From positions 1 to 25,310 of the IMG/VR virus record IMGVR_UViG_3300037247_000291: a DNA stretch of 25,310 bases, one strand, 5' to 3'. Within the stretch, counting starts at the first letter, position 1, and every line of letters begins with the position of its first letter. This DNA comes from a virus. Positions 5,603 to 25,021 of the stretch are shown piece by piece. The position numbers and the translations under genes are program-made. Under the pieces are notes generated by a model that worked only from the letters and a program-made list of their open reading frames with translations, searched no databases and was not told the DNA's origin.

Positions 5603-5679
5603 TGGTAGCGGAGGCGGGACTCGAACCCGCGACCTCGGGATTATGAATCCCGCGCGCTGACCTACTGCGCCACTCCGCG
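5603..5679 (-). tRNA. tRNA with anticodon CAT (Met type)
   Basis: A 77-nt cloverleaf folds on the minus strand. Acceptor CGCGGAG pairs with CTCCGC, the D stem is GCGC/GCGC, the anticodon stem CGGGA/TCCCG encloses TTCATAA (anticodon at 5643-5645), and the T arm is GCGGG-TTCGAGT-CCCGC. The 3' CCA is encoded. The first pair is C1 with T72, a mismatch, which is unusual for an elongator and resembles the unpaired 1-72 position of bacterial initiator tRNA. The anticodon stem lacks the three G-C pairs of initiators. Elongator Met, or Ile2 after lysidine modification, are the options. It sits inside the head operon. Confidence 0.9.
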
Positions 5680-13535: not shown

Positions 13536-13971
13536 GTCTCCGTCTCCTCTCAGCGTAGGTTTCCCCGACGAGGCCGATGATGCGGCTCTCCCGAACGATG
13601 ATCTCCCTCCGATCGCCGGCGTGATCGAGACCGGCATCGAACGCCAGCTCAGCCACCTCACGGAGACACTCATCCGGCCAGCCGGCCATCTTCAGCTCGT
13701 GCAGAAAGACCCACGGCCGCAGCTCAGAGAACGCCCCCGAGTGGTGAGCTCTCCCAAACGCCAGCAGCACCTTGCCGCGTTGAACCCACAGATCCGCCGA
13801 CATCGCCGACTCCTCGAGCATCTCGCTGAATCCGAGGCACTCTCCACAGTCGGTCACGTAAAACCACGGTTGGTCATCCGCCTCCGGTCCGCGGTGAACG
13901 ACGAGCCACGTCCCCTCGTTGGTGATCAGGGGCGGGCCGAGCGGGTCTATTCGATCGCGGAGCGTCATCAT
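13525..13971 (-). CDS. Unknown protein between portal and protease (148 aa)
   Basis: ATG at 13971 overlaps the portal-MuF stop (ATGA), so 13971 is preferred over the frame start at 13995. The product opens MMTLRDRIDPLGPPLITNEG and contains a segment WFYVTDCGECLGFSEMLEES with two Cys. The C-terminus is basic (GETYAERRRRHGN) and overlaps the protease start by 11 bp. It is coupled to both neighbours and so likely has an assembly-related job, but the family is not recognised. Confidence 0.6.
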   Translation of the reverse strand: MMTLRDRIDPLGPPLITNEGTWLVVHRGPEADDQPWFYVTDCGECLGFSEMLEESAMSADLWVQRGKVLLAFGRAHHSGAFSELRPWVFLHELKMAGWPDECLREVAELAFDAGLDHAGDRREIIVRESRIIGLVGETYAERRRRHGN

Positions 13972-15986
13972 CCGGGGCCTATCGTGCAATCGCATCCCTC
14001 GTGGAGTGGCGGATGCCCGAAGCTCTGAGTTACCTCCAGCGGAGCGGTCCCCTCGACGCCTGGGTCGACCCGGTCGCCGGCCGCGAGAAACGACTTCGTG
14101 ATCTCCACCGACCGGCCGTCAATCTCCTCGCAGAGCGGACAGTTATCTCCCACCGTCACCCATATGACGCGTCGGATGCCATTGAAAGCCCAGGCCGACT
14201 TTGCGACCGCGCTCCCCATCTGGACGACCTCGCGGCTCGCCAGCTTGCCCGGGCGCTTCTCTTCCCACTCCCCGAGCCGGGTCTCGAGCACGTCGGCGAG
14301 ATCCGCCTCCTCCGTCGCCGCGATCAGCCGGCGGAGCTGGCCGATCGAGCTCTGCGTCATCCGTATCGCAAGAGAATCGACGTAGCTCCGCACGAAGTCC
14401 TCGCCCTCGTCGCCGAGCTCGCCGTCCGCATCGATCTCGTTGGCCGCCTCGGCGTAAATCGCGGTGGCCATCGCCATCATCACCGGCATGAATCGTTTGA
14501 CGATCGCCGCGCTATGGTCGGGATAGAACTCGTCGATCCAGACCTGGAGATCGAATGCCCCTCGAGCGCCGAGCGCGCCCTTGATCGCTTTCCTCGCGGC
14601 CTGGACCTCTTTCCCGATCACCGTGTTCGCCGCGGTCCTCACGAGCGGCTCGTGAGCCTTTTGCAACCGCCGCCGCGTCCGCTGTGACCGCGTTTCCCGC
14701 CTCGTAGGGGCAGGCCCCCGCGCCTGCCCTGCCCCTACGTCCTGGAACAGGCCACCGCTGAAGGCCCCGTCGTCGCCCGATTCGTCGGCGGCGCCGCCGA
14801 GCTGGTCGAGAGGCGTCATATTCAGCGGTGCCAGGTAGAGGTCGCCGCCTTCCTGCTCGATCGGATTCATGTTCTCGAGCTCTCGGATGTCGTTCGATGA
14901 GAGCCACCCGCCCATCCTGGCGGTGTTGTACGCGGTGTACCTGGCGGACAGGTCGCCCCGGGCAAGCCCGTCGACGAGGTACTCCGCGAAGATGTTCGGC
15001 TCCCTGGCCGTGATGAGCCGAGACTTGATCGCTTGCTCCCAACGCACTAGCCATGGGCGGAGCGTGTAGATGATGAACTCGAGGCCCTGATGCTCGATGT
15101 TGGTGAAGGTCGCGTTATCCAGATCGGCGATCAGGTGAGGCGGCACCCTGAAAATCCGAGCGATTTCCCGAATCTGGAACTTGCGAGTCTCGAGGAATTG
15201 AGCGTCGTTCGGCGGGATCGAGGTCGACTTCCACTTCAACCCATCTTCGAGGATGAGGAGCCGCTGAGCGTTGGAGAGCCCTTTGTAAGCCTCGTTGAAC
15301 ACCCGCCGGAATTCGGTCCTCGCCTCGTCGTTCTCGAATTTCCCAGGGTACTCGAGTACACCGCCTGGCTTCATCCCATCCCCAAAGAACCGCCCGCCGA
15401 GCTCCTCCGCCGCCAGGCCGAGCCCGATCGCCTCTCTGAAGAGCGTGATCGGGGAGTACCCGGCGAGTCCGTCCCACCCCAGGCCAGGGACATGGAGCAC
15501 CTGATCGGCCCGGAGCCCGACCTCGCCCGATCCGATGATCGTTCGATAGCTCAGCACCTTGTTGCGTCGGACCGGCCAGGTGCGGTCCGGCAGTAGTGGC
15601 CACAGGCCGATCACCCGACCCGCACGGTCCCGCTCGATCTCCGCGTACCCGTTGCCCCACGAGACGGCGTGCGCCGTGATCGTTTCGCGGAAGATCATCG
15701 AGGTCATCTCGGAGTTTGCCTGATCGTGGAGGACACGGAAGAGGGGATGCGATGCCGCCCGTTCTTTCCCTCGAGGCTCGAGCCGGCGGTACGTGATCAG
15801 CGGGAGCGAGGCCAACGTCTCCGAGATCACCCGTATGCAAGCGAACACCGCGGAGTAGTTGAGCGCCGTCGCCTGCGATACATTCCGACCGGCCTTCGTC
15901 GCCTGGCCACCGACACTCGTGACGAGCCAATCGTCGTCAACCCGAGGATGAACGCGCCTCTCCAGGAGCGTGGAGATCGCACCCAT
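13968..15986 (-). CDS. Portal protein fused to MuF-like head morphogenesis domain
   Basis: The protein has 672 residues. Residues 1 to ~400 show HK97 portal blocks: SAVFACIRVISETLASLPLI, GNGYAEIERDRAGRVIGLWP, EIARIFRVPPHLIADLDNAT, and EQAIKSRL. Between ~400 and ~445 is a low-complexity linker. From ~440 on is a helical domain ending in DNCPLCEEIDGRSVEI and HPPLHEGCDCTIGPG, the Cys/His signature of SPP1 gp7/Mu F-type domains (PF04233). Portal and MuF are separate genes in most phages; here one continuous frame links them. A palindromic DNA repeat at 14703-14739 lies inside the linker. AAAGGGG precedes the ATG. Confidence 0.92.
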   Translation of the reverse strand: MGAISTLLERRVHPRVDDDWLVTSVGGQATKAGRNVSQATALNYSAVFACIRVISETLASLPLITYRRLEPRGKERAASHPLFRVLHDQANSEMTSMIFRETITAHAVSWGNGYAEIERDRAGRVIGLWPLLPDRTWPVRRNKVLSYRTIIGSGEVGLRADQVLHVPGLGWDGLAGYSPITLFREAIGLGLAAEELGGRFFGDGMKPGGVLEYPGKFENDEARTEFRRVFNEAYKGLSNAQRLLILEDGLKWKSTSIPPNDAQFLETRKFQIREIARIFRVPPHLIADLDNATFTNIEHQGLEFIIYTLRPWLVRWEQAIKSRLITAREPNIFAEYLVDGLARGDLSARYTAYNTARMGGWLSSNDIRELENMNPIEQEGGDLYLAPLNMTPLDQLGGAADESGDDGAFSGGLFQDVGAGQARGPAPTRRETRSQRTRRRLQKAHEPLVRTAANTVIGKEVQAARKAIKGALGARGAFDLQVWIDEFYPDHSAAIVKRFMPVMMAMATAIYAEAANEIDADGELGDEGEDFVRSYVDSLAIRMTQSSIGQLRRLIAATEEADLADVLETRLGEWEEKRPGKLASREVVQMGSAVAKSAWAFNGIRRVIWVTVGDNCPLCEEIDGRSVEITKSFLAAGDRVDPGVEGTAPLEVTQSFGHPPLHEGCDCTIGPG
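14703..14739. repeat. Palindromic repeat inserted in the portal-MuF linker
   Basis: CGTAGGGGCAGG and CCTGCCCCTACG form perfect 12-bp arms around a 13-nt loop. An alternative inner stem GGCAGGC/GCCTGCC is also perfect. It resembles short REP-like genomic palindromes with a GTAGGGGC core seen in various GC-rich bacterial genomes (from memory). It is read through in frame as DVGAGQARGPAPTR. Confidence 0.7.
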
Positions 15987-15990
15987 TCGT

Positions 15991-16176
15991 TTACCCCTTT
16001 CGCCCGCTGTCCTGCCGGGGCCGCGTAATCCCCATCCACACCGCCAATCCCATCAGCACCAGCCCCAGGAACACTAGCATCCACTCCAGCCCGACGATGT
16101 ACAGCCCCGCCGCCGCCAGCCCGACCCCCACCGCCCCGATCACATCCTCGACGTCGATCTCCGTATTCCAACTCAT
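15991..16176 (-). CDS. Small membrane protein (61 aa)
   Basis: After MSWNTEIDVEDV come two hydrophobic segments, IGAVGVGLAAAGLYIVG and MLVFLGLVLMGLAVWMGI, joined by a very short turn, and a basic tail RPRQDSGRKG. This is a two-helix membrane hairpin. The gene starts after the palindrome-containing gap and ends 4 bp before the portal start. It could be a holin-like or host-directed protein, but two-helix phage proteins have many roles and no lysis genes adjoin it. Confidence 0.65.
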   Translation of the reverse strand: MSWNTEIDVEDVIGAVGVGLAAAGLYIVGLEWMLVFLGLVLMGLAVWMGITRPRQDSGRKG

Positions 16177-16230
16177 GCTACCACACCCTCACAAGTTGAT
16201 TTCGTCGCGAGAATCGTGCTCGCGGACACT

Positions 16231-16300
16231 AATGCATGCATCCACCTGGGATCTCCCGACGATGCATGCATCTTCTCGGATCGCCAATGATGCATTCATC
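16231..16300. promoter_or_regulatory. Three GATGCATGCATC-type palindromes ahead of the portal operon
   Basis: The 125-bp gap 16177-16301 contains AATGCATGCATC (16231-16242), GATGCATGCATC (16261-16272, a perfect 12-bp palindrome) and GATGCATTCATC (16289-16300). Centres are 30 and 28 bp apart, close to three helical turns. The same motif lies beside the capsid promoter. No strong -35/-10 pair is visible downstream, consistent with an activator-dependent start. Confidence 0.55.
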
Positions 16301-16301
16301 A

Positions 16302-17111
16302 TCAGGTCATGCACACACCGCTATCGCACGGGTGCTCCAGGTCCACCTCCAGCGCAAGCTGCCTCGCCCCCTCGTCCTCCGGGATCGAGATGGCCTGCGC
16401 CAGCGGCCTCCGGTATGGATGCACGAACAGCTCGGCCTTTGGGCGCTTGTTCCGGATCGTCGCGTCGACAGCGACGGCCTCTTCCCAGTCGGGGCCGCCC
16501 TCGCGCTTCAGGCCGCGCCAGGACTCGATACCGCGGAACGGGCAGAACGTACACGACGACTTCGGCGGGACCTCCAGCCGTTGTTTCTGTAGCCACGCCA
16601 CGCAGCCGGCCCGCGAAATCCGCCGGTCCACCAGCGGGTACACGTTGGTAATGTAAGCCACATCGCTCTCGTTCATCCGACGCCACTCATCAAGACTAAT
16701 GCCCTGCCACGACTCGACAATCCCTGGGCTCAGCGCGAGCCCACGGCGCTCCAGCTCCGCTCGAACGAAACGCCGGATCGGCCCGATCTTCCAATCGCTC
16801 GTGCATTGGCGCTTGATCTGCCCCCGCTTCGCCGTCCGTCTGTCCTGGGTGAATGCCGGGATCATCACAGACGGCACCCTTGCATACTTGACGGCATCCG
16901 TCCGGCCCCCGCTGACCGTTATCACCGTCAGCCCGTTCTCGCCGAGCCAGGGCGTCCAGCGTTCGGCGAAGTCGTATGTGGCAGAGCGCTCGTGTTGCGT
17001 ATCCGCGTGAATAAGGAAATCCACCCGGGGCAGCTCGTCCCGCGCCATCATCGCCGCCAGCGTGAACGACTGCACTCCCCACCCAAGACTCAGAACCCGA
17101 AGCTCACTCAT
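16302..17111 (-). CDS. PP-loop / PAPS-reductase-like protein
   Basis: ATG at 17111 overlaps the radical SAM stop (ATGA); 269 residues. SLGWGVQSFTLAAMM (residues 8-22) sits where a PP-loop (SGGxDS) is found in adenine nucleotide alpha-hydrolases, followed by DFLIHADTQHERSATYDFA, QIKRQCTSDWKIGPIRRF, a block SWQGISLDEWRRM, and KSSCTFCPFRG. The C-terminus is HPCDSGVCMT. The family is common in phages and actinobacteria and is usually labelled PAPS-reductase-like; its substrate is not known. Cys 103, 187, 190, 262 and 267 could hold a metal or Fe-S cluster. The classic SGG..S motif is altered to GWGVQS. Coupling to a radical SAM gene suggests a joint modification step. Confidence 0.8.
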   Translation of the reverse strand: MSELRVLSLGWGVQSFTLAAMMARDELPRVDFLIHADTQHERSATYDFAERWTPWLGENGLTVITVSGGRTDAVKYARVPSVMIPAFTQDRRTAKRGQIKRQCTSDWKIGPIRRFVRAELERRGLALSPGIVESWQGISLDEWRRMNESDVAYITNVYPLVDRRISRAGCVAWLQKQRLEVPPKSSCTFCPFRGIESWRGLKREGGPDWEEAVAVDATIRNKRPKAELFVHPYRRPLAQAISIPEDEGARQLALEVDLEHPCDSGVCMT

Positions 17112-18076
17112 CCCCCCGTCCTCAGGCTGCGTAGAGGTGCTTGCTCGTCCTTGCGATTGGAGTAGTCCCAAATGGGCACGTACTTCCAGAGGTAGCGGTT
17201 GTAGTAGCGCGCGAAGTCTCTGAGCGTTTGCACGCTCCAGTCGAATCGCGCCTTGGGCACGCCATTCAAAGAGTTGAGCGGGATGAACGGCTGGCAAAAG
17301 GGCTCGCCGCCCCACTCCAGCACCTTCAGGGCGCGCTCATAGCAAGCCTCCATGGGCTCGTTTCCGATCAGCACGTAGACGCGCTTCCGCTTGCGGGCAA
17401 CATCACACAAGACCTCCATCATCCGATGCACTTGTTCCAGCTCGGTCATGTCGTCCAGGGCGAACCTCCACGGCCCCCGCAGTATCGACCTCCACCGTTC
17501 GTAAGTGTCTCCATCGAATGTCAGCGGCTCGAACCCGCTGTTAGCGTCCCGTAGCACCATTTCCGCCTGCTCATATCGAGCGATGACGTGATCCTGGAAG
17601 TCGACCGGCAGGGCCGACAGGTTGTTGTCGCACAGGATCGGCGCCGGCTGAAACCACCAATTGAGCGTGAAAGTCGTTCCCTCGAGCTTGGGAACGATGC
17701 AAAACCAGCAATCGACAGGGCAGCCCCGACTCGCGAACGTCATTAAGTAATCGCCGCGCTGATACTCAAACCGGTGGTCTAGCCCAATATGCGGCTCGAA
17801 TCCGGTCTCTCGTTTCCACCACGACTTCAGCGCGAACAACCCAGGACCGCCCGCCCAAACCTCGGCCCGATCTCGTACCCGAACGGCGATATCGCGCGCC
17901 ATGGGCGCATTCCATGAGAACATCACCGACAGCGCCACCAGGTCGTATCCCAGTGTGAACATACCCGGGTCACCCCTGGCGCGGTCGACTTGCCAACCCT
18001 CGCCCTCAAGCCAGTTGGCCAGCTTCGCCGCTCCGAGGTTGAATTGAGTCGAGCAGTTGACAACGAGCGCCTTCAC
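17108..18076 (-). CDS. Radical SAM protein with N-terminal B12-binding-like region
   Basis: The GTG start at 18076 lies one base after the large terminase stop. Residues 1-100 start MKALVVNCSTQFNLGAAKLA and continue DLVALSVMFSWN and VWAGGPG, resembling the Rossmann-type domain that precedes many radical SAM cores. FASRGCPVDCWFCIVPKLEG carries the CxxxCxxC cluster motif (Cys 119, 123, 126). The C-terminal half (RFALDDMTELEQVHRMM, YVLIGNEPMEACYERALKVL) is consistent with the rest of the barrel. It would use a 4Fe-4S cluster and SAM; the substrate is unknown. Its place between terminase and portal is that of an accessory (moron-like) gene pair with the downstream PP-loop protein. Confidence 0.85.
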   Translation of the reverse strand: MKALVVNCSTQFNLGAAKLANWLEGEGWQVDRARGDPGMFTLGYDLVALSVMFSWNAPMARDIAVRVRDRAEVWAGGPGLFALKSWWKRETGFEPHIGLDHRFEYQRGDYLMTFASRGCPVDCWFCIVPKLEGTTFTLNWWFQPAPILCDNNLSALPVDFQDHVIARYEQAEMVLRDANSGFEPLTFDGDTYERWRSILRGPWRFALDDMTELEQVHRMMEVLCDVARKRKRVYVLIGNEPMEACYERALKVLEWGGEPFCQPFIPLNSLNGVPKARFDWSVQTLRDFARYYNRYLWKYVPIWDYSNRKDEQAPLRSLRTGG

Positions 18077-18077
18077 G

Positions 18078-19685
18078 TCATCCCACCACCAGCGCCGGCC
18101 CCGGGTACACCCGGTCGTCGTCCTCGTGACGCATCGCCCGCTCGATCGCGATCACCAGCGCCACGATCCCGTCGATCCGCTCCGTGCTCTTGTCCTTCGC
18201 CGGTTTGATATTCCCCGCGGCGTCCGTCGAAATCGCCGTATTCGCCGCCATCCACTTCAGGATCGGATTCCCCCGGTGGGCGAGCTTGCGCTGAAGCACG
18301 AGCCGCTCGACTTCCTTCGTCGGCGCGCTCAGCGTCGCGAACCCCTGCCGCACATTCACCAGCGTGAGACCGTCCTCCGTGAGCTGCTGCCCGAGCTGCG
18401 TCGCGTTCCACGGGTCGATCCCGATCTCCTTGATCGCGTGCCGCTCCGCCAGCTCATTTACCTCCCGCCGGATCACCGCGTAGTCAATCACATTTCCCTC
18501 GGTGGCGGTGATCAACCCCATCCGCACCCAGGCGTCATACGGCACCCGGTCCCGCCGTGACCGCTCCACAATCCGTTCCGCCGGCACCCAAAAGCGGGAG
18601 AGGACGTCGTACGACCCGTCGACGTCGGGAAACACCAGCAGGAACGCCGCGATATCCGTCGTCGACGCCAGATCCAGGCCGCCGAAACACCGCTGGCCAT
18701 GGAGAGTCTCGATCGGAGTCTCCATCGAGCAGGCGTTCCAGTCCTCCAGCGACAGCCACCGCGTCACCTGGGACGTCCAGATGTCGAGATGGAGCCGGAG
18801 GAACGTGTTCAGGAACCCGGCCGAGCGCCGCGCGTGCTCCGCTTCGTTCTGGAGGTACTCCAGCTTGACCGTCGCCCCGAGATTCGGATTCGCCTTCGCC
18901 CACACCCGAGGGTCCGTCCAGTCGTCGTCCGGCTCCGCGGCCGCGATGTACGCGAAGGTCGAGTCATCCTCGAGCGCCCCCTCTAGCACCGCCACCGCGT
19001 GATTGTGCTCCTCCAGGCCGATACTCTCCTGGCGCGCGACGCCCGCCGTCGTGATCGCGATCGTCATCGGCTGACGCCGGGCCCCCATCGACGTTTGCAT
19101 CACGTCCCACAGGCGCCGGTCCCGGTGCGCGTGGAGCTCGTCGACGATGTTGGCATGCGCGTTCAACCCGTCCAGCGTGTCCGAGTCCGCCCCCAACGGC
19201 TCGAACTTCGACCACGTCCGAGGATTGTTGATATTGTTCCGCAGCACCCGCACGTGCGACCGGAGCCTCGAGAGCTTCACCATCTCCGCCGCGTCCCCCC
19301 ACACGATCTTCGCCTGATCCTTTTTCGTGGCGGTGGAATAAACCTCGGCGCCCATCTCCCCGTCCGCGATCGTGAGATACAGACCGACTGCCGCGGCGAG
19401 AGTCGACTTCCCGTTCTTGCGCGGCAGCTCCACGTACGCGTGGCGATATCTTCGAGTCCCATCGGCTCGCCTCCACGCAAACAACGGCATGATGATATCG
19501 TCGAGCTGCCAGGGCGCCAGTCGGAACGGAGCGCCGGCCCACTCGCCCTTGTAGTGCCTCAGGAGCCCGATGAAATTCGCCACCCGCTCGCCCTCCGCCC
19601 GATCGTAATACAGCCCCCGCTCCTCGCCCCCCTCTTGATCCCGCCGCTCCCTCTCCCTCGCGAGCTCCACGTACCTCGAGGTCAT
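18078..19685 (-). CDS. terL: Terminase large subunit
   Basis: The ATG at 19685 overlaps the upstream methyltransferase stop (ATGA) and has AAAGGA eight bases upstream; 535 residues. The ATPase domain shows APWQLDDIIMPLF, Walker A ELPRKNGKST (about 86-95), YSTATKKDQAKIVWG, and Walker B ANIVDELHAH (Asp-Glu about 182-183). The nuclease domain shows CFGGLDLASTTDIAAF (Asp about 337), EIGIDPWNATQLGQQL (Asp about 423) and ERIDGIVALV (Asp about 504), the three acidic positions of TerL nucleases. It packages DNA into the prohead with the small subunit and portal. Length and motifs look intact. Confidence 0.95.
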   Translation of the reverse strand: MTSRYVELARERERRDQEGGEERGLYYDRAEGERVANFIGLLRHYKGEWAGAPFRLAPWQLDDIIMPLFAWRRADGTRRYRHAYVELPRKNGKSTLAAAVGLYLTIADGEMGAEVYSTATKKDQAKIVWGDAAEMVKLSRLRSHVRVLRNNINNPRTWSKFEPLGADSDTLDGLNAHANIVDELHAHRDRRLWDVMQTSMGARRQPMTIAITTAGVARQESIGLEEHNHAVAVLEGALEDDSTFAYIAAAEPDDDWTDPRVWAKANPNLGATVKLEYLQNEAEHARRSAGFLNTFLRLHLDIWTSQVTRWLSLEDWNACSMETPIETLHGQRCFGGLDLASTTDIAAFLLVFPDVDGSYDVLSRFWVPAERIVERSRRDRVPYDAWVRMGLITATEGNVIDYAVIRREVNELAERHAIKEIGIDPWNATQLGQQLTEDGLTLVNVRQGFATLSAPTKEVERLVLQRKLAHRGNPILKWMAANTAISTDAAGNIKPAKDKSTERIDGIVALVIAIERAMRHEDDDRVYPGPALVVG

Positions 19686-20725
19686 GCCGTCATCCTTTGC
19701 CAAAGCGTGCGGAAGGCGTAGGCTCCCTGCGCGGGCACGACCGCGTTGCCGAGCGCTCTAAGGCGGTGTCTCCTATCGGGAACCCCATTAGCCACTCGAC
19801 AAACAGCGGGTTCAAGCGCCGGCACATCGGCGAGCACTCGTGCCCAGGCTGCTCGATCGTCGGGGCCTGGCGGGAAGCCGTTGTTGGCAAGTCTGGACTC
19901 CTTCTCCTGGCCTCGGCCTCCGTGTAAGGGAAGATATCGCTCGCGGTTGGCGTCGGCCACTGTCGCGCCTGAGCGTCCAGGTAGGGCCTGCCCTGCCCGT
20001 CCCGCTGATTCGGCCCGCCCTTGTCGCTGCTCGCCTTCGGCGTGTCCCAGAGGGCCGCTTCGACATGCAACGGTGTCGCGAACGGCAACTCCCCGCGCTC
20101 CGTCCGTTCCTTCTGGCGTTGCTCCCAAACCTCCGGCGACGTCTGACCCCGCTCGAACCAACTCGCCGCTGGCGTAGGCCACTCGGACGCCTTCTCCCGC
20201 AGGTTCACGAAGCCGCCGTGGTGGTTGCTGTACGTGCTCGTGTTGCTGTCTGGCGTAGGCCAGGATGAAGAGGCGTTCGCGGCGGTGCGGTGCTCCGACT
20301 TCCGCAGCCGTAAAAGTGTCCCAGACCGCATCGTACCCGCCTTCGGCCAGGTCTCCGAGTATTCGGCCAAAGTACCCGTGAGCAAGGAGGCCTGGGACGT
20401 TTTCCAAGAAGACGTAGCAGGGTCCCAGCTCGCGAATGGCACGGTAGGTCTCGGGCCACATGTTTCGCTCGTCGTCCTCTCCTCAGTTCTGCCCGGCGAC
20501 GCTGAAGGGCTGACAGGGGAACCCGGAGCAGATGAGACCGACGCGCTCAACGCTCCGCCAGTCAATCTCTCGGATGTCCCCGTACCGTCTGACATCAGGC
20601 CAGTGCCGCTCCAGAACCTTCCTGCAAAACTCATCGTTCTCGACTTGCCACGCTGGGCTCAATCCACGGGCTTCGACGGCGCGATCAAGACCGCCTATGC
20701 CCGAGAAGAGGGAGCCGAATCGCAA
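19682..20725 (-). pseudogene. C5-cytosine DNA methyltransferase interrupted by in-frame TGA
   Basis: A TTG start at 20725 leads into MRFGSLFSGIGGLDRAVEAR (motif I) and ICSGFPCQPFSVAGQN (motif IV, catalytic Cys). A TGA then occurs at 20483-20485. The same frame goes on as GEDDERNMWPETYRAIREL, with FLENVPGLL (motif VI), GAPHRRERLFILA (motif VIII) and RLRALGNAVVP (motif X) to TGA at 19682. No frameshift is needed: 347 codons with one stop. The codon could come from CGA (Arg) by one C-to-T change. The family methylates cytosine at carbon 5. It may be a dead gene, a read-through gene, a sequence error or two fragments that reassemble. Its last codons overlap the TerL start. Confidence 0.85.
19690..20634 (-). 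other. Long overlapping reading frame with WPTP repeats (314 codons)
   Basis: A frame shifted against the methyltransferase frame is open for 314 codons from ATG 20634 to 19690, across the methyltransferase TGA. It has four W(P/D)TP-type segments (SSWPTPDSN, SEWPTPAAS, ALWDTPKAS, RQWPTPTAS), a block SWKTSQASLLTG with EYSETWPKAGTMRSG, and LNPLFVEWLMGFPIGDTALE near the end. I recall similar WPTP-containing phage proteins with an 'LNP..VEWLMGFP.G' ending, so this may be a real gene. It may also be the shadow of the methyltransferase's own repeated Val/Leu-Ala-Asp/Tyr-Ala segments. No clear ribosome site decides. Confidence 0.45.
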
Positions 20726-20981: not shown

Positions 20982-21818
20982 TCACCGCGTGACGGCCATC
21001 AGATCGATAGATTTACGCCTGAGCGGCTTGTTGTCGGGGCCTTTCACGTACAAGGGCACTAAGACCGGCCGGTGCGTTTGCTCCTTCGGATACCATTGGT
21101 TCCTCCAATGTGGCCGCACCAGCCACCGACAGGACCAATCGACCGCCTGCTCTCCTCGCGCATCATCTTTCGGCTTCTCGCGGGCACGGAGTCTCACAAC
21201 CCGCACAAGCGGGTCGGATGCGACCGGCGCCCTTGCCATCCGCCGCTGCGAAGCGCGAGGCAGTCGCACTGGCGCCAACGCCGGTATCTTCTGTCGAATG
21301 AAGGCAAAGAAAGCGAACATGAGCCGGGTTGCATCGCGGTCGTCAAAGACGGCCTCTCTGTCTGACACACACTCATCAAACATCCAGAAAGTTGACCACC
21401 GAATGTCCAGGGGGTTGCCACCGAACCCCTCAAGCTCCAGCGCCGGGTCTCCAGTATCAGAAAAGCGCACCTCAGACCACAACAATGCGCGCATTTCCAG
21501 CGGTCCGAACGGCTCCTCCAGGTACATCAGCCCGCTCGTATCAACCGGGCGGATGTCCTCTAATGGAATCTCCCTCGGCACCGTCTCCGCCGCATCCCGC
21601 AGAACCCTGCATACGTCCCGACTTACGAAATAAGGCACAGCATGCGTCAACCCGTCGATGATATCGAGACGCCACTCCGATGGCTTTTGAAAAGGTGCCT
21701 CTTTCCTACCGTGGAGGTGGCGTCTCGCAATCCCTTCGAGGGTTCCCACCGATCGTGACGCGCTCCAATCTTCAAGCGCATGCATCTGCCACTCTAGTGC
21801 TTGGTACTCCGCAGTCAC
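20982..21818 (-). CDS. Unknown protein with C-terminal W-HWR-QWYP motif (278 aa)
   Basis: A GTG start overlaps the upstream stop (GTGA). The first ~180 residues contain EMRALLWSEVRFSDTGDPAL and FDDRDATRLMFAFFAFIRQK. The C-terminal ~60 residues contain VDWSCRWLVRPHWRNQWYPK, THRPVLVPLYVKGPDNKPL and a final basic strand. A similar 'W.VR.HWR.QW.P...H......VKGP...PL' block occurs, from memory, in phage and plasmid proteins of actinobacteria, function unknown. Base composition is less GC-rich than the terminase genes around it, which suggests a separate acquisition. Confidence 0.7.
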   Translation of the reverse strand: MTAEYQALEWQMHALEDWSASRSVGTLEGIARRHLHGRKEAPFQKPSEWRLDIIDGLTHAVPYFVSRDVCRVLRDAAETVPREIPLEDIRPVDTSGLMYLEEPFGPLEMRALLWSEVRFSDTGDPALELEGFGGNPLDIRWSTFWMFDECVSDREAVFDDRDATRLMFAFFAFIRQKIPALAPVRLPRASQRRMARAPVASDPLVRVVRLRAREKPKDDARGEQAVDWSCRWLVRPHWRNQWYPKEQTHRPVLVPLYVKGPDNKPLRRKSIDLMAVTR

Positions 21819-22315
21819 GGCACGTCTCCCAAATCTTCATCCTCTGCCATTTCTACCAGGCGCGATGCTTCATCCTTCGCGTTGAGGACGATCTGTAGAT
21901 CAACGAGCCCAGCCGGCTTGCCACTTGACCTCGCCCGCGACGCCGCAGTCATCCCGAACCGCGCCAGCGATTTGCGTAGCAAGCACAGGGCGCGATTGGC
22001 CATCGAGACGTAAGGGCTCGGCAAGACCATTCCGTTCGGCGTCGCGATCAGCGGATTTTTCTTGGCCTCCCGTGAATAGAGGACCCACCGCTCGTAGGTG
22101 GCGCAGTACATATGAAACGCCGTGAGGTCCGTGTTCGTCAGGAGCCCGCGCCTCCTCAACGCCGGCCCCAGCCGGCGCCACTCCTTCGCGCCGACTTCCC
22201 CCAGGTCATCCGGCGGCGACGGGATGCGCTGCCCGCACAGCTTGTAGACCAAGTCCTTGCCCAGTCGATACCACTCCGCAAACTTCTTCACCGTCAACCA
22301 CTCTCGTTCAGCCAT
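21815..22315 (-). CDS. Chimeric HTH / P27-terminase-like protein (166 aa)
   Basis: ATG at 22315 is preceded by GGAGGAG four bases away, so it is well translated. Residues 6-28 (LTVKKFAEWYRLGKDLVYKL) resemble an excisionase/AlpA-type helix-turn-helix. Residues ~29-130 (RIPSPPDDLGEVGAKEWRRL, TAFHMYCATYERWV, FGMTAASRAR) match the P27 small terminase encoded just upstream at roughly 60 per cent identity by eye. Residues 134-151 (PAGLVDLQIVLNAKDEAS) match the N-terminus of the tape measure protein at 15 of 18 positions. It looks assembled from three sources. It might act as an alternative DNA-recognition small terminase or be inactive. Confidence 0.75.
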   Translation of the reverse strand: MAEREWLTVKKFAEWYRLGKDLVYKLCGQRIPSPPDDLGEVGAKEWRRLGPALRRRGLLTNTDLTAFHMYCATYERWVLYSREAKKNPLIATPNGMVLPSPYVSMANRALCLLRKSLARFGMTAASRARSSGKPAGLVDLQIVLNAKDEASRLVEMAEDEDLGDVP

Positions 22316-22335: not shown

Positions 22336-22812
22336 TCATTTCGCCCTGGTCCGGTATAGAAATTCGCTCAGCTCATCGTCCTGCCGATCACTTGGATCGA
22401 CCGCGACCCTCGACCGCGACGACGGGGTCATCCCGAAGTCCGAAAGCGATTGCTTCACCATGTAGTACAGCCGGTTTGCCAATGACGTGTACGGGCTATG
22501 CTGGAAATAGCCGCTCGGAGTCTGAATTATTGGATTCTCCCTCGCCTGCCGCTCAGCATCGACCCACCGCTCGTACGTGGCGCAGTACATATGGAACGCC
22601 GTCGTGTCCATCTCCGTGAGGAGCCCCAGCCGCACCAGCACCGGTCCCATTTTCCGCCACTCCGCCTTGCCGATCTCCCCCAGGTCATCCGGCGGCGAGG
22701 GGATGCGCTGTCGTCGCCGTGGCCGCGGCTCATTCTCGTTGATCGGCCGCCGGCCAGGATTACCCTCCAGGAGCCTCAGCCTCGTCGGCTTCGGCGGTCG
22801 CCCCATCGTCAT
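22336..22812 (-). CDS. terS: Terminase small subunit, P27 family
   Basis: The product starts MTMGRPPKPTRLRLLEGNPG and continues RRPINENEPRP, the N-terminal signature of P27-type small terminases (PF05119). The helical body contains RIPSPPDDLGEIGKAEWRKM, AFHMYCATYERWVDAERQAR and SDFGMTPSSRSRV. It recognises phage DNA and activates TerL for packaging. ATG at 22812 overlaps the methyltransferase stop (ATGA). The length (158) is normal for the family. TerL is ~3 kb downstream, separated by the chimeric paralogue, two unknown genes and the C5 methyltransferase, instead of adjacent. Confidence 0.92.
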   Translation of the reverse strand: MTMGRPPKPTRLRLLEGNPGRRPINENEPRPRRRQRIPSPPDDLGEIGKAEWRKMGPVLVRLGLLTEMDTTAFHMYCATYERWVDAERQARENPIIQTPSGYFQHSPYTSLANRLYYMVKQSLSDFGMTPSSRSRVAVDPSDRQDDELSEFLYRTRAK

Positions 22813-24605
22813 GGCACCAGCCCCATCGGAAGCGCCAACCCCTCGAGTCGCTTGGCCGCCAGCTCGAGATATTCCGCGCTCAGGTCGATGCCGATGCTGC
22901 GCCGTCCGAGCCGCTGTGCGACGTAGGCCACCGTGCCGGAGCCCGCGAACGGGTCCAGCACCGTAGCAGGTGTCGTCTCCTCATGGCCGCAGTCGCAGGT
23001 GGGGCGCCAGCCGGTTGTATCTTGTTTCTGAGGGGCAACCGCTGAGTTCGTTTTCCCCATGCGGAAAGCCGAGCCTTTCCCACCTTCACCATAGAACCGT
23101 TGAGTCTTGGCCCACTCGGTATATTCCTCTCGAACCTCCACCACGCGCTCCCACGGCCCGCCGCATTCGGGGCAGACGCCGCGCTCCGACGTCCCCGCCA
23201 GGATGCACGGCTCGACGAACTTCTCCGGGAACGTCGCGAAGTGGGCCTCCGGATAGGGCTCCGCCGCTATCTCCCACACCGAGCGCTTGTTGCGGCCACC
23301 GGAGCTTGTCCCTGCGCTCGTATTGTGGCCGAATGACTCCCATGTCGCGTGACCGTTAGGACGCCCCCGTTCTCTTACACTTTCATTCGGCTCCCGTATC
23401 GCGTCGGTGTCGTAGAAGTAGTTGCAAGTAGTGGGCCAGACTGATATGATTTGGCCATGCTGAAAGTCGAACTTGCATACCTCGCCGGAGTCTTGGACAG
23501 CGATGGTTCCTTCACCATCGGCGTAGATTCCTGGCGTGTTCGCAAGCTGAATCGAAGTCCGACCTACTATGAGCACGTTGCCTTGGCCCAGACGCAACCC
23601 GAAGCGTTGGAGCTTCTGCAAAAACTCTTTGGCGGAAAGATTGGAACTCAGAAGGCGCGAGGCGGCATTAGCCAACGCCCGATGCTCAGATGGCAGGCTA
23701 ACAATCGTATCGCTATCACTGTTGTCCGCGCTGTTCGCCCCTACCTCCGCATCAAGAAGCGGCAAGCGGATGTACTCTTGAAGTTGAGGGCAATCCGTGA
23801 GCGCGGACGCGAGGCGAATACAAAGCTCGTCCGCCCCAAGGTGCGCGTTTTGTCTGATGAGACTTTGGCTGAGATGAGCGGGTTGGTCAGAGAGATTCGC
23901 CAACTTAACGGTACGGCTCGACCTCTGTCCCTTAGCTAGCAGGAACACGTACTCGTGCGCCCTCGTGGGCCGGTCAGTGACGCTCTCCGGCATCGGGTTC
24001 GGCTTGCTCCACACGATGTCCGAGCGCAGCCACCAGCCGTCCGTCTGAAGCGCCAGCGCGACCCGGGCCGGCATCATGCACAGATCCTTGGGCTTCAGGC
24101 CACGAGGAATAGGGTGCTGCACATTGACGGCCGCCCTGTCTCTGCGGAAGGACGCCGCGCAGTGGGTTCCGGCCGCATAGGTGTCCCCCATGTTCAACCA
24201 GAGCGTCCCGTCCTTGCGCAGTGCCCGCCGGACCTCGCGGAACAGCTCGACGACGTGAGCGACGTAGAGGTCGATGGTCGGCTCCAGGCCGAGCGACCCG
24301 CGCCAGGCCCCGCAAACGCAGACAGCGTGGAGGATAGGCTCGTCGCGCCCATTCGCACCGGCGTTGGACGCCTGCTTCGGAGACTTGCCGCCATCGTTTG
24401 ACCGTCGTTGGTAGGACTCCTCGTCCCATTCATGCTCGTGGCCGTCGTCGCCGCCCCACACCAGCGGCTCCAAGCCGTAATCGCGAAGGCCCCAGTACGG
24501 CGGGCTCGTCACGACACAGTGGACGCTCTCCGCCGGCAGCCCCGCAAGCACCCGCCGAGCATCGCCCTCGAGGAGCTGGACCACGCCGTTCGTCCAGTCG
24601 CTCAT
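22809..24605 (-). CDS. Beta-class N4/N6 DNA methyltransferase with a ~169-codon insertion
   Basis: ATG at 24605 overlaps the upstream stop (ATGA); 598 residues. Motif IV TSPPYW is at 33-38, followed by WRGSLGLEPTIDLYVAHVV and LWLNMGDTYA; DPFAGSGTVAYVAQ (motif I) is at ~551. The N-terminal IV, C-terminal I order is the beta class. CPECGGPW and CDCGHEET look like zinc-binding pairs common in phage versions. HEYVFLLAK (ending ~225) should be followed shortly by YFYDTDAIRE (~396), but about 169 codons intervene, all open. That insert is a homing endonuclease gene on the other strand. Whether the long protein is active is unknown. Confidence 0.88.
   Translation of the reverse strand: MSDWTNGVVQLLEGDARRVLAGLPAESVHCVVTSPPYWGLRDYGLEPLVWGGDDGHEHEWDEESYQRRSNDGGKSPKQASNAGANGRDEPILHAVCVCGAWRGSLGLEPTIDLYVAHVVELFREVRRALRKDGTLWLNMGDTYAAGTHCAASFRRDRAAVNVQHPIPRGLKPKDLCMMPARVALALQTDGWWLRSDIVWSKPNPMPESVTDRPTRAHEYVFLLAKGQRSSRTVKLANLSDQPAHLSQSLIRQNAHLGADELCIRLASALTDCPQLQEYIRLPLLDAEVGANSADNSDSDTIVSLPSEHRALANAASRLLSSNLSAKEFLQKLQRFGLRLGQGNVLIVGRTSIQLANTPGIYADGEGTIAVQDSGEVCKFDFQHGQIISVWPTTCNYFYDTDAIREPNESVRERGRPNGHATWESFGHNTSAGTSSGGRNKRSVWEIAAEPYPEAHFATFPEKFVEPCILAGTSERGVCPECGGPWERVVEVREEYTEWAKTQRFYGEGGKGSAFRMGKTNSAVAPQKQDTTGWRPTCDCGHEETTPATVLDPFAGSGTVAYVAQRLGRRSIGIDLSAEYLELAAKRLEGLALPMGLVP
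23422..23450 (+). promoter_or_regulatory. Promoter of the homing endonuclease gene (leaderless)
   Basis: TTGCAA (23422-23427), 17-bp spacer, TATGAT (23445-23450) with TGA before it (extended -10). The expected start of RNA is about 23457, the A of the ATG start codon. No ribosome site is visible, which suits a leaderless message. The -35 overlaps the methyltransferase-derived sequence near the insertion junction. Confidence 0.55.
23424..23930. mobile_element. Homing endonuclease insertion inside the methyltransferase gene
   Basis: The segment lies between conserved methyltransferase blocks LLAK and NYFYD and is about 507 bp long, a multiple of three. It consists of the LAGLIDADG gene and ~30 bp ahead of it, leaving no room for a group I intron core. 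No intein splice-site residues (Cys/Ser start with His-Asn end) are seen in the sense frame. It is clearly less GC-rich than both flanks. The exact junctions cannot be set without an uninterrupted homologue. Confidence 0.7.
23457..23939 (+). CDS. LAGLIDADG homing endonuclease (160 aa)
   Basis: This is the only convincing plus-strand gene. From ATG 23457: MLKVELAYLAGVLDSDGSFT, with the LAGLIDADG motif at residues 9-17 (LAGVLDSDG; the second Asp is the metal ligand). RSPTYYEHVALAQTQPEALE, LLQKLFGGKIGTQKA and RPYLRIKKRQADVLLKLRAI follow the usual single-motif pattern, so the enzyme should work as a homodimer. The start TTG at 23451 adds two residues. Codons align exactly with those of the methyltransferase on the other strand, and TTA, CTA and TCA are never used, so the antisense frame stays open. 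Its TAG stop lies within the codon for Leu of LLAK on the other strand. Confidence 0.9.
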   Translation: MLKVELAYLAGVLDSDGSFTIGVDSWRVRKLNRSPTYYEHVALAQTQPEALELLQKLFGGKIGTQKARGGISQRPMLRWQANNRIAITVVRAVRPYLRIKKRQADVLLKLRAIRERGREANTKLVRPKVRVLSDETLAEMSGLVREIRQLNGTARPLSLS

Positions 24606-25021
24606 ATCGCGAGCCTCTCCTGCCGGCCGGCAGGGACAAGCGGCTCGTCGACCTCGACCGTCTCGAACCTCACGACCCAGAGCTTGCCGCCCGTCCGTTT
24701 CCACGTGAGCCACGTGTCCCACGAAATCGAGCGCCACGGCGCACCGGCCGACAAGAGCTCCGGGTGCTCCTCGTAGAACCGGAACCCTTCGGCGTCGTAA
24801 TCAGAGTCCGGAGCGACCGCCATCTCCTGGAGGTAAGGCCGACCCGTCAGCACGATAAGCCCGATCCACTTCCCGTGGACACGCGGCGAGCGGTCGAACA
24901 CCTGAAGCCTCTGGCCCTCGCGAAGCCGGAGCGCGTACTCCACCGCCCAGGCCCGTCGGGTCACACTCTTCGCCCGAGCTCGGAACGCGGCCGTCGTCCA
25001 GGCCATCGAGATGATTTGCAT
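24602..25021 (-). CDS. ASCH-like protein (139 aa)
   Basis: The product starts MQIISMAWTTAAFRARAKSV and continues TRRAWAVEYALRLREGQRLQ, then VFDRSPRVHG and GLIVLTGRPYLQEMAV. The pattern 'S....A..AR.K+VTRR.W....A.....G......DRSPR' is found in phage proteins of the ASCH/PUA-like fold group, which may bind modified nucleotides or RNA. Identification is from memory of the pattern. The start shares a base with the upstream stop (TGATG) and the stop overlaps the methyltransferase start (ATGA), so it is coupled to the DNA-modification gene. A link with DNA modification is possible but inferred. Confidence 0.65.
   Translation of the reverse strand: MQIISMAWTTAAFRARAKSVTRRAWAVEYALRLREGQRLQVFDRSPRVHGKWIGLIVLTGRPYLQEMAVAPDSDYDAEGFRFYEEHPELLSAGAPWRSISWDTWLTWKRTGGKLWVVRFETVEVDEPLVPAGRQERLAI

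Follow-up and report, generated by a model that had tools for sequence, protein, structure and literature searches.

A radical SAM and PP-loop gene cassette between the terminase and portal genes of a phage contig

Why would a packaging operon carry genes for a radical SAM enzyme and a PP-loop protein, and do the two enzymes work as one pathway? The question is raised by a stretch of viral DNA of 25,310 nucleotides (IMG/VR virus record IMGVR_UViG_3300037247_000291, positions 1 to 25,310), here called the window. A preliminary description, made from the sequence alone, had proposed that the two genes form a coupled pair that could serve DNA hypermodification.

The cassette and its insertion point

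Both genes lie on the minus strand between the genes for TerL and the portal protein, where the preliminary description had placed them. The features of this part of the window are as follows:

13968-15986, minus strand: portal protein, downstream boundary of the insert
15991-16176, minus strand: small ORF of 61 aa between the PP-loop gene and the portal gene
16302-17111, minus strand: PP-loop protein, 269 aa, ATG start; profile match to phrog_424 (E=4.5e-33)
17108-17111, minus strand: stop/start overlap of the radical SAM and PP-loop genes, reading ATGA
17108-18076, minus strand: radical SAM protein, 322 aa, GTG start; profile match to phrog_9298 (E=2.7e-12)
18078-19703, minus strand: TerL (terminase large subunit), upstream boundary of the insert

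The scores of the two genes against phrog_9298 and phrog_424 were far beyond chance level, and both enzymes belong to phage families that are already known but whose function is uncharacterised. The radical SAM gene begins at 18076, next to the end of the TerL gene at 18078. Its overlap with the PP-loop gene, also claimed earlier, reads ATGA on the minus strand, and GGACGGGGGG precedes the ATG start of the PP-loop gene; the overlap is likely to reflect translational coupling.

We compared this arrangement with 80 fetched relatives of the window TerL, of which 62 had a recognisable portal gene. None of the 62 carried a radical SAM or PP-loop gene between TerL and portal, and the gap between these two genes was mostly less than 350 nt. 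In one relative (L200), the order is TerL, a 59-aa ORF and portal, with a gap of only 185 nt. This 59-aa ORF is a homologue of the 61-aa ORF of the window and marks the insertion point of the pair. Because neither gene occurs at this position in the 62 relatives, and given the gene order in L200, we conclude that the pair is inserted cargo, an insert of approximately 1.8 kb between TerL and the 61-aa ORF. Foreign base composition was considered as a further mark of the insert and rejected, as its GC content (0.61–0.63 versus mostly 0.63–0.67 around it) is not distinctive.

Other features of the window were noted in passing. Repeated ATGCAT/ATGCATGC motifs occur in the 125 nt (16177-16301) that separate the PP-loop gene from the 61-aa ORF, a tRNA-Met (CAT) lies amid the structural genes at 5603-5679 (minus strand), and two tandem small-terminase-like proteins, each matching Terminase_4, are encoded at 21815-22315 and 22336-22812 (minus strand). 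A TerL gene directly adjoined by a radical SAM gene was also seen in four other loci (L012, L052, L076 and L085).

Co-occurrence of the two genes and the methyltransferase context

A gene-neighbourhood survey showed that carriers of one gene rarely carry the other. A radical SAM gene was present in 1 of 50 PP-loop records and in 2 of 21 records of the clade of the window PP-loop gene, which is marked by the loop GWGVQS. In the other direction, 8 of 50 radical SAM records contained phrog_424, against 5 of 50 records of the TerL control (Fisher p=0.55). When PP-loop genes of any type were counted in the flanks, they occurred at 10 radical SAM loci (a count that includes redundant contigs) versus 4 TerL loci (Fisher p=0.10 with denominators of 74 and 76), and comparison of the GWGVQS sub-clade with other PP-loop/TerL loci gave p=0.054; in these controls the TerL flanks are structural regions and the relatives are not independent. 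As co-occurrence is rare, the data do not support a dedicated DNA-hypermodification pair, and the association between the two families is loose at most.

Several near-neighbour arrangements recur. The radical SAM gene overlaps an SGGKDS-type PP-loop gene by ATGA in L035-037, and the two genes are 64 nt apart in L061. In L052, the order is TerL, radical SAM, portal and a PP-loop gene of the same GWGVQS clade as in the window, cut by the contig end, and in L027 a 62-aa GWGVQS remnant lies 0.6 kb upstream. These four cases hint that a description of the genes as separable cargo understates a real functional link. One gene separates the two in L137. A radical SAM module and PAPS-reductase homologues have been described in Thermus phages as possible, unproven DNA-modification genes (PMC11437467); our literature search found no paper that pairs the phrog_9298-type radical SAM family with the phrog_424-type family.

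Two further observations concern the surroundings of radical SAM genes. At L019:3634-4626, the first part of the radical SAM ORF is a PP-loop-like peptide (MREINYCGISGGKDSTAVA), which may be the trace of a PP-loop gene that was fused or replaced. The flanks of 6 of 74 radical SAM loci, versus 0 of 83 PP-loop loci, contain a member of the protein cluster around L042:5506-6309; it has a radical-SAM-like cysteine motif of its own and is probably DUF5131, a family matched once among the neighbours of radical SAM genes.

The preliminary description had also pointed to two DNA methyltransferases and an ASCH-like protein in the window. The methyltransferase regions and an ORF overprinted on one of them are:

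19682-20725, minus strand: C5-methyltransferase region with an in-frame TGA at 20483-20485
19690-20634, minus strand: overprinted ORF of 314 aa in the +1 frame of the C5-methyltransferase, matching phrog_1008
22809-24737, minus strand: N6/N4 methyltransferase, 642 aa, with a PF01555 match in three separate stretches

The N6/N4 enzyme is a single long ORF, whereas the C5 frame is broken by the TGA; the ASCH-like protein was not confirmed among the window ORFs scanned. The split PF01555 match suggests that the N6/N4 enzyme holds a large internal insertion. We considered adjacency to methyltransferases as support for DNA modification and rejected it, because neither family was enriched at a distance of one gene (PP-loop p=0.78, radical SAM p=0.30). 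PP-loop genes were weakly enriched at two to three genes from methyltransferases (p=0.03 and 0.01, among relatives that are not independent); radical SAM genes showed no significant enrichment beside DNA methyltransferases. In a small set of methyltransferase loci (n=15), two had a PP-loop gene and none had a radical SAM gene.

The overprinted ORF remains open across the TGA of the C5-methyltransferase. Of 32 C5-methyltransferase genes from phages, 21 have a +1 frame that stays open for 193–370 codons, compared with 56–194 expected from synonymous shuffling (p<=0.01), and 1 has a +2 frame that is open in this way. Between pairs with the overprint, third-position substitutions in the methyltransferase amounted to 0.41 inside the overlap and 0.54 outside it, versus 0.58 in genes that lack the overprint. 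An open +1 frame with lowered third-position change is a signature of dual coding, which suggests a conserved overlapping gene. In Mycobacterium phage Sassafras, gp71 and gp72 are both annotated 'DNA methylase' and have coordinates offset by one frame; phrog_1008 thus appears to be the +1 overprint frame of the C5-methyltransferase.

The two protein families

The call of a radical SAM enzyme was borne out by the phrog_9298 match and by the cluster motif CxxxCxxC (C119/C123/C126), which is accompanied by a DNN motif at residues 150-152. The window protein as a query retrieved no phage record at E<=1e-5, and relatives were reached through family alignments alone. The alignment search yielded 80 viral loci and 15 genomic ones, and 67 sequences were aligned, all of which match phrog_9298. 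S50, G118, C119, C123, C126, V128, G133, D150, G181 and D208 are invariant in these 67 sequences, and E132 is invariant or nearly so. Sequence searches of the PDB with each single protein of the pair returned no match, NCBIfam gave only sub-threshold B12/radical SAM matches to the window protein, and its profile weakly matched RimO and MiaB.

An AlphaFold2 model of the radical SAM protein (pLDDT 95.6) had its best PDB fold matches in MgmA (9ccb, E=8e-9) and CysS (9n1c, E=4e-7), and the next matches include isolated cobalamin-binding domains. The B12-binding-like front part that had been described holds at the level of the fold. It fared less well at the level of sequence: PF02310 scored 24.2 bits, under its cut-off of 32.1, and matched only 5 of the 67 family members, and the first part of the B12-like domain is absent in 47 of the 67. 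The clade of the window protein (8 of 67) has a complete N-terminal Rossmann half and is nested within truncated relatives. The idea that small upstream ORFs encode the missing part of the truncated genes was rejected, as these ORFs are unrelated. The protein appears to descend from the group of radical SAM enzymes with a cobalamin domain; its use of cobalamin is doubtful, given the weak PF02310 matches and the many relatives lacking the first part.

The PP-loop protein has the loop SLGWGVQS and six cysteines (103, 170, 187, 190, 262 and 267), each conserved in >=90% of relatives, rather than the five counted in the preliminary description. Nor is GWGVQS an alteration peculiar to this gene, as S-x-G-x-G-V-Q-S is typical of the family. 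PHROGs names phrog_424 'phosphoadenosine phosphosulfate reductase', and a fold search placed CysH on top, followed by LarE with a 4Fe-4S cluster, TtuA and NcsA, all with modest TM scores of ~0.4. By profile, the protein lies closer to SspD. The PADLOC SspD model matched the window protein with 53 bits (E=9.4e-15). When the phage family (n=67) was compared by hhalign with a set of the best SspD-model matches from genomes (346–445 bits), the probability was 99.6 (E=1.8e-23, 212 columns), versus 98.2 for a canonical phage PP-loop group and 36 for CysH/APR. A tree joined the phage family and SspD with support of 98/93, with long branches elsewhere. The initial PP-loop/PAPS-reductase-like assignment holds for the fold and is not borne out for PAPS reductase itself. 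The sulfur role that had been suggested gains support from the likeness to SspD. A PDB entry named 'PptA' (21fy_C) weakly matched the PP-loop family profile (E=0.001), and a literature search for it did not identify its system.

Proposed role and comparison with known systems

Taken together, these data are best explained by a two-gene accessory (moron) cassette in the packaging operon that encodes separable modifiers of nucleic acids or nucleotides rather than one obligate pathway, an account to which we give an even chance. The cassette would have entered the operon at the junction of TerL with the small ORF/portal. In the radical SAM enzyme, C119/C123/C126 would bind a 4Fe-4S cluster that, together with SAM, starts radical chemistry. 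The PP-loop protein may be an SspD-like sulfur-carrier enzyme, with a putative cluster held by C103 and C187xxC190 and a flexible C-terminal pair, C262/C267, that could deliver sulfur as a persulfide to a target nucleotide or nucleic acid. Having lost the K-D of SGGKDS, it is unlikely to perform ordinary ATP pyrophosphatase chemistry. Both enzymes probably modify nucleic acids or nucleotides, for anti-restriction or host takeover, with homology pointing to a nucleic-acid substrate, and most likely act separately or in loose partnership. The enzyme folds and the sulfur role of the preliminary description are thereby retained, and its dedicated coupling is given up on account of the rare co-occurrence.

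Other readings were weighed against this account. The two enzymes might still be dedicated to DNA or nucleotide hypermodification, the PP-loop protein supplying sulfur and the radical SAM enzyme inserting either this sulfur or a carbon group into a base. The ATGA overlap in the window, its independent counterpart in L035-037, the arrangements in L061 and L052 and the DNA methyltransferases that adjoin some GWGVQS-clade genes argue for this; however, most carriers lack the partner, co-occurrence does not exceed the TerL control, no significant enrichment of radical SAM genes was seen next to methyltransferases, and the window ORFs that were scanned included no recognisable hypermodification gene such as a thymidylate-synthase homologue, so that we regard it as unlikely. 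Chemistry of the MiaB/TtcA kind, split over two proteins and directed at tRNA or other RNA of host or phage, would be in line with the RimO and MiaB matches of one protein and the TtuA and NcsA folds of the other. These matches are at superfamily level only, no RNA-binding domain was identified and co-occurrence is weak, which makes this reading rather improbable. An improbable variant of similar standing is a swappable module of a phrog_9298 radical SAM enzyme and a PP-loop partner of GWGVQS, SGGKDS or SFGKDS type, sometimes sited at the TerL/portal junction, that would use an as yet undescribed chemistry to add sulfur or a carbon group to phage nucleic acid.

Two readings concern the PP-loop protein alone. 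It seems quite improbable that it fills the SspD role in a phage phosphorothioation system: the profile similarity in PADLOC, hhalign and the tree is strong, and SspD, described as an ATP pyrophosphatase, binds the desulfurase SspA (PMC7188994), but the phage protein has GWGVQS in place of SGGKDS, and SspA, SspB, SspC and Dnd had no match among the window ORFs scanned. As the contig is a 25-kb fragment, genes for a cysteine desulfurase and SspB/C partners could lie beyond it. Virome papers commonly read phage 'PAPS reductase' (cysH) genes as auxiliary metabolic genes for sulfate assimilation (for example, PMC9301287). The PHROG name, the G-x-Q loop and the top fold match to CysH favour a true PAPS reductase; against this stand the lack of a PF01507 match in the window protein (15 of 67 relatives match), the low CysH/APR probability, the absent ECGLH tail and the SspD-like cysteines, and we consider it very unlikely here. 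One large branch of phrog_424 lies nearer to SspD than to real PAPS/APS reductases, which makes the metabolic reading doubtful and points to a role in nucleic acids as the thing to test. The radical SAM partner stands for a phage family of considerable size that is still uncharacterised and whose cobalamin-type domain is degenerate.

Among known systems, the phage PP-loop family and SspD have in common the cysteine pattern RxCT...CxFC...C-terminal CxxC and differ in the loop (SGGKDS in SspD). In DndC, three cysteines hold a 4Fe-4S centre and a cysteine dyad is thought to receive sulfur (PMC10853773), and by analogy the phage cysteines may be arranged in a similar way. The loop of Escherichia coli CysH, SSSFGIQA, is likewise of the G-x-Q type and lacks the K-D, whereas the tail of the phage protein contains CDSGVC instead of ECGLH. 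CysH uses PAPS and not ATP, so that the phage protein, too, may be able to bind a nucleotide while having no ATP pyrophosphatase activity. Within phrog_424, members from Thermus phage P23-77, Geobacillus phage PK5.1 and Pelagibacter phage HTVC034P are ~32–61% identical to the window protein and share its loop and cysteine pattern; its sub-clade is set apart by GWGVQSFT, and the window protein itself has the tail CDSGVCMT in place of ECxGxCGV. The phrog_9298 members of Bacteroides phage BKO1-TP3 and Methanomassiliicoccales virus vir215 resemble the window radical SAM protein in CxxxCxxC, DNN and a length of ~300 aa, but the window protein belongs to a small clade that keeps the full N-terminal Rossmann half. 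MgmA and CysS, the cobalamin-dependent radical SAM methylases that provide its best fold matches, are longer than the phage protein, in whose family the cobalamin domain is degenerate or partly absent.
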